Assembly: GCA_009699205.1 (NCBI GenBank)
Contig: WLOP01000004.1
Span: 1 to 49,211, forward strand
Reading direction: 5' to 3'
Length of the DNA stretch: 49,211 nt
Source: Actinomycetota bacterium
GTDB taxonomy: Bacteria > Actinomycetota > Actinomycetes > Nanopelagicales > Nanopelagicaceae
Part shown: piece by piece, positions 1 through 1,807 of the stretch
Layout of the letters: each line of letters opens with the position of its first letter
How positions within the stretch are numbered: the first letter of the stretch is position 1
Program-made: the position numbers and the translations under genes
Notes under the pieces: generated by a model
What the model was told of the DNA's origin: nothing
Database searches by the model: none
The model's input: the letters and a program-made list of their open reading frames with translations, nothing else

Positions 1-3
1 CAT
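1..3 (-). CDS. Start codon of a gene running off the left edge
   Basis: Only the initiator ATG (minus strand, bases 3 to 1) is visible. It is supported by a Shine-Dalgarno GGAGAG five bases upstream and by a 132-nt leader that aligns without gaps over most of its length to the leader of the secreted LRR gene at 1411. The arrangement suggests a tandem paralogue or co-regulated neighbour of that gene. Nothing of its protein can be read, so the function is unknown. Confidence 0.5.
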
Positions 4-135
4 CGCTTCTCTCCAAATTCATCGTGCAAGGTGCTCCCGTATGGACCACGCACGGCAACTTGTGAGGAGGCCGATGGGTTAACCCTTACAGGTGCAAGGG
101 GAGAGTGCAAGGCAGGGGGTTGGGCAGACCCAACC
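4..135 (-). promoter_or_regulatory. Structured leader, copy 2 (candidate cis-regulatory RNA)
   Basis: This is a 132-nt 5' leader on the minus strand in front of the gene starting at 3. It opens with a 7-bp hairpin (GGTTGGG, loop TCTG, CCCAACC; 118-135). A second stem, CCCTT with AAGGG around an 8-nt loop, lies 17 nt further on. A block of about 40 nt (37-77) is highly similar to copy 1. The distances from hairpin to block and from block to ATG match copy 1 to within one base. The element begins 31 nt after the stop codon of the LRR gene. The hairpin is not followed by T residues in this direction, so it is not an obvious terminator. I do not recognise a known riboswitch class. Confidence 0.6.
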
Positions 136-166
136 TTTTAGGATGAAATCTGAGCTTCGTCTCCTT

Positions 167-1411
167 TTAAGGCGAGCAGGCCCCAGGGATGGCGATGTCC
201 CCGAAGGCATTCGGATCAATGGCAACCCCAAGCGGCAAGTCAAGGCAGATGATGTTCGTCCATTTGAAAACATCCCAGCTAATGGTTTGGACACTTGAAG
301 GCAGAGAGATTGAAGAGAGAGCGGTGTTATAAAAAGCTCCGTGATCAATCCTTACGAGCGTGCTGCCAACAATAGTAACCGAGGCTAGGTTTGTGGAATC
401 AGCAAAGGTATAGGAATTGATTATCCCGACACCGTTCCCGATGGTCACACTCGTCAATGAAGGTGTGGAGTTAAAAGCCTCTGCCTCAATATAGGTGACT
501 GAATTGGGGATTATCACATCTGTTACATGCGAACCCCGTAATCCCCAAGGGCCGATGGAGGTTACAGAGGAGTCAATATTCACCGCGCCAACACAATTGG
601 AGTTTGTATCGAGAATTCCATCGGAAGTTACGTGGTAAGTCCCGCTAACGCCACAAGGGAAGTCTGCATCCGTATTAGATGGCATCTGATCTAATGAGCG
701 CCAATGATCAACCCCCCAGGTGTCATCGCGAGTTTCAATAGTAAATTTGTATACATCTGTGGAGAGTGCGAATGTTCCACATGGGCCAAAGGAGCGATTA
801 CCATCGAAATTTGCGACAAAACTTGTCGCAGTTATATCGCTCGGATAAATACCGACATCGTTGACAACATATGCATATCCATGTCCATCACCAGTGACAT
901 AGTCACTGTTGCCGGTGGCACCGGAATATCCACCCCATGGATCACCATAAACATCTAACCCAGGATAATCGCTTGCATCGCGGCCACCATCAAAGAGAAC
1001 TTCAGCACTTTGTGTCGATGTGCCCTGGTTGGCACACGTAGGAAGTGCGAGATAGAGAGGATTAGATTCGGTTCCCGAGTAGGCCTTTATGATGAAATCT
1101 TTACCGTTGCATTCACTGGGAATATTACTTATCTGAACGCCGCTAAGTTGGAAGTCACCTTCATTGGCGCTATTAACAAAACTCGAAACAGGTGTAACGG
1201 TAAGAGTGCTCTCTGCGTTCGATCCGCAGTAAACAGTCTGCGCAACCCCTTGTCCAAATTCAACGGGCCCTGAGTTGATATTGATATTTGCAGCAAGAGT
1301 AGAACCAAGAGCGACGGTAATTGAAAGCAGTCCGATACCTAAAATGATTTTGACAGGTTTACCTTTAGGGGCGCGAGAACGACCGCCATCGCTAAAGTTC
1401 AAGACCGACAT
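167..1411 (-). CDS. Secreted leucine-rich-repeat (BspA-type) protein
   Basis: The product is a 414-residue exported protein of unknown role. The start at 1411 is chosen because AGGGAGG lies just upstream of the ATG; the longer reading from 1492 would run into the structured leader. A basic N-terminus followed by a hydrophobic segment at about 22-41, ending near STLAAN, is a signal peptide or membrane anchor. Residues of about 42-260 form a Ser/Thr/Gly-rich beta domain with scattered cysteines. The C-terminal third has repeats of the LRR_5/BspA type (units such as VTDVIIPNSVTYIEAEAF and LTSVTIGNGVGIINSYTF). Such repeats usually mediate binding at the cell surface. The N-terminal domain resembles one I recall from several secreted proteins of freshwater actinobacteria, but that is memory, not a search. 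Confidence 0.85.
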   Translation of the reverse strand: MSVLNFSDGGRSRAPKGKPVKIILGIGLLSITVALGSTLAANININSGPVEFGQGVAQTVYCGSNAESTLTVTPVSSFVNSANEGDFQLSGVQISNIPSECNGKDFIIKAYSGTESNPLYLALPTCANQGTSTQSAEVLFDGGRDASDYPGLDVYGDPWGGYSGATGNSDYVTGDGHGYAYVVNDVGIYPSDITATSFVANFDGNRSFGPCGTFALSTDVYKFTIETRDDTWGVDHWRSLDQMPSNTDADFPCGVSGTYHVTSDGILDTNSNCVGAVNIDSSVTSIGPWGLRGSHVTDVIIPNSVTYIEAEAFNSTPSLTSVTIGNGVGIINSYTFADSTNLASVTIVGSTLVRIDHGAFYNTALSSISLPSSVQTISWDVFKWTNIICLDLPLGVAIDPNAFGDIAIPGACSP

Positions 1412-1544
1412 CGAATCCCTCCCTATTCCTCGAGTCTTCACGGTCCAGTATTGGCCGTGCATGGCCACGTGTGAGGCGGCCGACGGGAGCAATCCTGAGA
1501 GCCGAGGAGCGCAACTTCAATTGCAAGGTTGGGTTTACCCAACC
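1412..1544 (-). promoter_or_regulatory. Structured leader, copy 1 (candidate cis-regulatory RNA)
   Basis: This 133-nt leader of the LRR gene begins with the hairpin GGTTGGG-TAAA-CCCAACC (1527-1544). It continues with a stem TCCT/AGGA around an 8-nt loop, then the conserved block (about 1445-1487), and ends in the Shine-Dalgarno. Compared with copy 2 the second stem sits at the same offsets, and its base pairs change in a compensating way (U-A to C-G, and C-G to U-A). That is what a selected RNA structure would show. The CTCCC within the leader could also pair with the GGGAG of the ribosome site, which would allow translational control; that part is inference. Confidence 0.6.
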
Positions 1545-1551
1545 TAATTAG

Positions 1552-1557
1552 AAGTTA
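1552..1557 (-). promoter_or_regulatory. Probable -10 box for the LRR leader
   Basis: TAACTT on the minus strand fits the actinobacterial TANNNT pattern and ends seven bases before the first G of the leader hairpin. Transcription would therefore begin at the hairpin itself, giving a transcript with a protected 5' end. No convincing -35 is visible. The tRNA-Tyr gene ends only about 50 nt upstream, so read-through is an alternative. Confidence 0.4.
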
Positions 1558-1607
1558 TTTTCGAATTCGACTGAATCGATTCTTCTGTAGGCACTTTTAA
1601 GTCTTAC

Positions 1608-1692
1608 TGGTGGCGGGTGAAGGATTTGAACCTTCGAAGGCAGAGCCGGGGGATTTACAGTCCCCTCCCATTGGCCGCTCGGGCAACCCGCC
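1608..1692 (-). tRNA. tRNA-Tyr (GUA)
   Basis: The minus strand reads a class II tRNA with acceptor GGCGGGT pairing with ACCCGCC, then A and an encoded CCA end. The anticodon loop is CTGTAAA (anticodon GTA), there is an extended variable arm, and the T-arm has TTCAAATCC. Length is 85 nt including CCA. Bacterial tRNA-Tyr has a long variable arm, which agrees. Its 3' end faces the accessory-looking LRR segment. Confidence 0.95.
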
Positions 1693-1807
1693 AGGGTCGA
1701 ACAGAACTTGCGGCAATTATGGATTGTGCGAGGTCAAAGGATACCGTAGGCAAGTAGGCGCGCAAACCGCCTTTTTTAAGGGCAAGTAATGAAAGAGAGT
1801 AATGAAA

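Follow-up and report, generated by a model that had tools for sequence, protein, structure and literature searches.

The inverted repeat common to the two leaders described here is very probably operator and promoter DNA. The best overall explanation, held with good though somewhat lesser confidence, is an 18-bp operator coupled to a promoter that would be activated through a dimer of a LuxR/NarL-type response regulator encoded on another contig (C13) of the same genome. The window, meaning the whole stretch of 49,211 nucleotides that was analyzed (G000:C12:1-49211), comes from a 1.42-Mb assembly, 96% complete. In the original prediction, the leaders were taken to be a cis-acting RNA controlling a family of secreted proteins. 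The element does appear to act in cis and to be common to a secreted family, but the notion of a structured RNA leader is unsupported, and the sequences point instead to a DNA palindrome, almost invariant, that keeps a constant distance to a predicted promoter.

In the proposed mechanism, GGTTGGG-N4-CCCAACC constitutes the putative operator, residing directly upstream of a -35 element (TTGnnn) that is followed by a spacer of 16-17 bp and a weak -10 element (nAnnnT). A dimeric DNA-binding protein would occupy the palindrome and most likely activate transcription. Less certainly, this protein would be the LuxR/NarL-type response regulator whose gene accompanies that of a probable histidine kinase in the family gene cluster, and it would turn on the genes for the secreted proteins and their signal peptidase, and in one relative also those for a Flp/Tad pilus. 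The element is most likely, in other words, the operator of a probable two-component regulon, of an already known kind. The corresponding features of the window are as follows.

118..135, minus strand: palindrome 1, candidate operator, GGTTGGG TCTG CCCAACC, GGTTGGGTCTGCCCAACC (sequence; pattern search)
105..110, minus strand: predicted -35 of leader 1, TTGCAC (promoter geometry)
82..87, minus strand: predicted -10 of leader 1, AAGGGT, including the stem 3′ arm at 83-87 (promoter geometry)
4..75, minus strand: predicted 5′ UTR of leader 1, ~72 nt, holding the block conserved among paralogues (from the predicted -10)
1..3, minus strand: start codon (ATG) of a family gene that continues past the contig end (sequence; the same 140 bp starts contig C15)
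1527..1544, minus strand: palindrome 2, candidate operator, GGTTGGG TAAA CCCAACC, GGTTGGGTAAACCCAACC (sequence; pattern search)
1515..1520, minus strand: predicted -35 of leader 2, TTGAAG (promoter geometry)
1492..1497, minus strand: predicted -10 of leader 2, CAGGAT, including the stem 3′ arm at 1493-1496 (promoter geometry)
1412..1485, minus strand: predicted 5′ UTR of leader 2, ~74 nt (from the predicted -10)
167..1411, minus strand: secreted family member with a signal-like N-terminus ...LGSTLAANININSGPVEFGQGVAQT, then BspA-type LRR_5 repeats (Pfam LRR_5, 1.3e-21; family alignment)

The two leaders are indeed co-linear, as first described; they share a 7-bp inverted repeat and differ in length by one nucleotide: the palindrome lies 114 nt from the ATG in leader 1 and 115 nt in leader 2. 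Window positions 1-140 recur without a single difference as the opening 140 bases of another contig of this assembly, C15. Since C12 and C15 each end within a repeated family gene, one or more family members must be missing from the assembled sequence.

The expectation that further copies would precede genes for secreted proteins is borne out in this genome. Eleven exact copies of GGTTGGG-N4-CCCAACC occur in the 1.42 Mb, against 0 for the reversed control, and 10 of them, a count that takes the identical contig ends C12:1-140 and C15:1-140 separately, are upstream of members of one paralogous secreted-protein family. The eleventh (C17) is located between a guaB-like gene and a gene for another secreted protein. 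A near-match lies upstream of the family member at C14:94896, a version with one mismatch precedes the signal peptidase operon at C9:8026, and a site at C15:52832 retains an intact right arm but a degenerate left arm; the remaining matches with two mismatches are no more numerous in this genome than the control gives. The palindrome is usually preceded by an A-run. Beyond this genome, the exact sequence is absent from 40 relatives, 20 of them congeners, and among 296 genomes of the order it was found only in G000, G305 (the same as G041), G300 and G094. G305, which belongs to the same family as G000, carries its palindromes at coordinates identical to those in G041. The G041 and G300 copies reside in a syntenic cluster. 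The single copy in G094, which precedes a gene resembling those for sugar-ABC binding proteins and lies outside the cluster, was set aside as chance or unrelated.

The proteins encoded downstream share the signature ...LGSTLAANI.INSG.VEFGQGVAQT.CD, which has 17 matches in G000. Their common N-terminal domain is predicted to be a beta sandwich (pLDDT 81), and another member of the family carries Ldl_recept_b repeats. The C9 signal peptidase passes the TIGR02228 cut-off and is of the archaeal/SipW type. At this locus (L108 4622-7912, G000:C9), the signal peptidase gene is followed by genes for a membrane protein and a collagen-like secreted protein, beside family genes.

When the copies are aligned on the palindrome, a consistent promoter-like arrangement becomes apparent downstream, in which TTGnnn occurs after 5-9 nt and is followed, at 16-17 nt, by nAnnnT. 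Representative predicted -35 and -10 hexamers, with the spacer length between them, are listed below.

Leader 1: TTGCAC-17-AAGGGT
Leader 2: TTGAAG-17-CAGGAT
C9: TTGCTG-17-GAGAAT
C14: TTGTCT-17-GAGAAT
C13b: TTGGCT-17-TAATGT
G041c: TTGTCA-16-TAGCCT

Of 13 scored sites before family or signal-peptidase genes, 12 show this spacing, the exception being C15c; G300 and C15:52832 show it too, bringing the total to 14 cases with one exception; the background rate in genome DNA is 2.9%. Relative to first-order Markov shuffles, 12 matches among 17 oriented sites correspond to P = 1.6e-15 in a naive calculation and 5.5e-7 at one site per lineage, values that include the exact G000 copies in which the rule was first noticed. 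Three sites (C9sip, G041c and G300) were retrieved after the rule had been fixed in writing, and all three fit. The arrangement is not found at C15c, at C17 or, in either orientation, in the G041 gap between the regulator and pilus genes. In a MAFFT alignment of six leaders, made without reference to the rule, the TTG is invariant along with two -10 positions, the A and the T, and the footprint of one orthologous promoter in three species (C13b, G041c and G300) conserves the palindrome, a TTG-like -35 and GCGTAnnnTTG. A palindromic site thus recurs at a set distance from the predicted core promoters of several genes with related functions, its center at about -50 to -53 relative to the predicted start and immediately upstream of the -35. 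The -10 elements are weak, and a generic promoter scan called none of them. In three promoters (L011 2176, L013 6400 and L013 2856), only 6 nt separate the predicted -10 from the start codon, which would make the mRNAs leaderless.

The best candidate for the protein that recognizes this site is encoded within the family gene cluster. A LuxR/NarL-type response regulator lies at G000:C13:123755-124393 beside a probable histidine kinase. The G041 ortholog is 77% identical, and there the palindrome resides in the divergent gap between genes for a LuxR-type response regulator and probable kinase and a Flp/TadE/Tad/CpaB operon. Among 20 congeners and 19 further genomes bearing the family, a close ortholog was found only in G041, all other regulators being no more than ~43% identical. 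A regulator with receiver and GerE domains (Response_reg and GerE, both above cut-off) co-occurs with the palindrome in G000 and G041; the G300 contig breaks off inside the kinase gene, short of any regulator gene. On these grounds, the C13 regulator is somewhat favored as the protein that binds the operator, and a similarly modest preference can be given to its acting as an activator, the most likely mode because the site is just upstream of the -35 and the -10 elements are poor.

The same operator and promoter could instead serve another transcription factor, or the palindrome could be a repressor site, and this is a possible, if less likely, reading. The promoter of the G000 regulator gene itself contains no palindrome, and the genome encodes a second LuxR-type regulator (C15:20019), both of which would suit a different factor. 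A site of this sort in front of the regulator's own gene is frequent among such systems but not obligatory, and G041 does have one. Against this reading, the C13 regulator gene is linked to the family cluster, G041 has its palindrome in the divergent gap, and regulator and site co-occur as just described. Placement directly before the -35 also suits activation.

Family-bearing congeners have a regulator beside the family that is 33-36% identical, without the palindrome, and its recognition helix differs from that of G000 (LRATE.LVQRTF against EQA.EKT..RICANL), which G041 matches. In these congeners the family is present with a diverged regulator in the corresponding position, yet the palindrome is missing, so a joint change of regulator and operator seems to have taken place. 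The Flp pilin is absent from G000 and from three congeners. Upstream of the family gene in five relatives (L064, L065, L066, L067 and L068, from G008, G022, G011, G007 and G016, respectively) there is another conserved region, TAAWACCCG ... GCTTGACTAACCCTC, which may be the operator of the diverged LuxR-type regulator found nearby in congeners. Three family genes in the MAG WLJX (L075 5300-5361, L077 2960-3028 and L085 940-1006) are preceded by sequence resembling TTGATTGAC..CAGCCACCAGGTTGCCG, with a CAACC/GGTTG inverted repeat in one upstream region and CAGCC/GGCTG in another.

A structured cis-acting RNA leader, in which the hairpin and an adjacent stem within the 5′ UTR would control translation or termination, now seems quite improbable. 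Its attraction was the presence in both leaders of the common hairpin together with a co-located stem, formed by 96-100/83-87 in leader 1 (CCCUU/AAGGG) and by 1505-1508/1493-1496 in leader 2 (UCCU/AGGA). That stem, originally described as compensatory, does occur at matching offsets from the palindrome with two swapped pairs, but it is not clearly above chance: when leader pairs are shuffled, 1.4-1.8% of them yield a co-located stem of at least four Watson-Crick pairs with at least two double changes, a figure uncorrected for the selection of this feature. Substitutions that break the stem, named beforehand as evidence against it, are present in C15b, C11, C13end, G041a and the rest, whether copies are placed by palindrome offset or by TTG offset. 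In alignment A2, no pairs are changed on both sides, and 56.7% of cells are paired compared with 55.8% in shuffles (leader 1 register). Compensatory change is likewise absent from the palindrome arms of exact copies, near-matches carry uncompensated changes, and RNAalifold applied to six leaders yields a weak consensus (-2.8 kcal/mol) with an unfavorable covariation term. The leader is not a recognized RNA class, as had been supposed: there is no Rfam match at gathering scores, and relaxing E to 5 gives tRNA-Tyr only. Moreover, the sequence between the palindrome and the -10 has diverged while its spacing has remained constant, which speaks for DNA rather than RNA. The stem falls within the spacer and the -10, its 3′ arms, AAGGG and AGGA, forming part of the predicted -10 hexamers, so the hairpin and stem would lie upstream of the transcription start and, if so, outside the transcript.

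The predicted UTRs also fail to display the expected constraint. The two window leaders are ~75% identical over their last 72 nt, and UTR identity is 0.66-0.79 among divergent paralogues, reaching 0.93 for leader 1 and C15b, a recent pair; identity in the adjoining coding DNA of the divergent paralogues (first 62 codons) is 0.70-0.76. The leaders are therefore similar, as the proposal of a conserved block of ~40 nt implied, but the block is no better conserved than the neighboring coding sequence, and because its identity only matches coding identity it needs no special constraint. Pairing between the pyrimidine tract and the Shine-Dalgarno sequence, likewise suggested, is possible, but only the UTR of leader 1 folds better than shuffles (z = -2.6, compared with -0.5, -0.9 and -0.1 for the other three). 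Conceivably, in addition to the operator, the ~72-nt UTR of genes of the leader 1 type could be an RNA element that hides the Shine-Dalgarno, adding translational control of the family to that exerted by a two-component system, although the chance of this is small.

Recent gene duplication likely accounts for the UTR block, as reflected in the equal UTR and coding identities and in the 140 bp with which C12 and C15 both begin. Duplication as the sole source of leader similarity, with no function beyond a core promoter, is nevertheless very unlikely, in that a near-invariant palindrome at fixed spacing is left unexplained for genes whose upstream regions otherwise show no relationship (C9, C14, C13b, G041 and G300). 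Least credible is an intrinsic terminator or a scattered REP-like repeat without a regulatory role, for while the G+C-rich inverted repeat is flanked by A-runs or T-runs at some copies, the hairpin in the gene direction is usually followed by C-rich sequence rather than U, 0 terminators are called in window positions 1-1720, and in three genomes the sites accompany a single gene family while holding to one promoter register.

With an operator and promoter as the preferred reading, a supposed new RNA class gives way to a testable regulon of uncultured freshwater actinobacteria (Nanopelagicaceae), built on a candidate operator of a two-component system. Its members would be a multi-copy secreted family and a signal peptidase, joined in one relative by a pilus operon, and the apparent co-evolution of regulator and operator can be read here in close genomes. 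A literature search on the control of secretion in Nanopelagicales found nothing relevant.

Several known systems bear comparison. In Mycobacterium, DosR/DevR is an actinobacterial LuxR-type response regulator that recognizes a palindrome of ~20 bp with two central bases upstream of promoters; the present palindrome also has two central bases upstream of promoters and a LuxR-type candidate regulator, whereas the sequence, genes and signal differ. As in the Bacillus SipW-TasA system, a signal peptidase of the SipW/archaeal type is encoded beside secreted surface proteins and is apparently controlled together with them, but the regulator is of another kind and the family domain is a predicted beta sandwich without a clear PDB relative. 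A TasA-like fold was considered for this domain and rejected, no PDB match having E < 0.001 and the best Z of 5.7 being to immunoglobulin domains. Another parallel in architecture is that of NarL, a response regulator of the LuxR family whose dimers bind inverted heptamers in a 7-2-7 arrangement. Activation by NarL occurs from sites at -40 to -49 and -38 to -47, and at napF and yeaR in Escherichia coli its sites are just upstream of the core promoter (PMC4549865). The present palindrome can be read in the same manner, as GTTGGGT-NN-ACCCAAC, with inverted heptamers two bases apart. Its heptamer, GTTGGGT, differs from the TACCCCT of an engineered NarL site (PMC4549865), and here the putative binding site maintains a nearly constant spacing to the -35 across a set of genes for secreted proteins.
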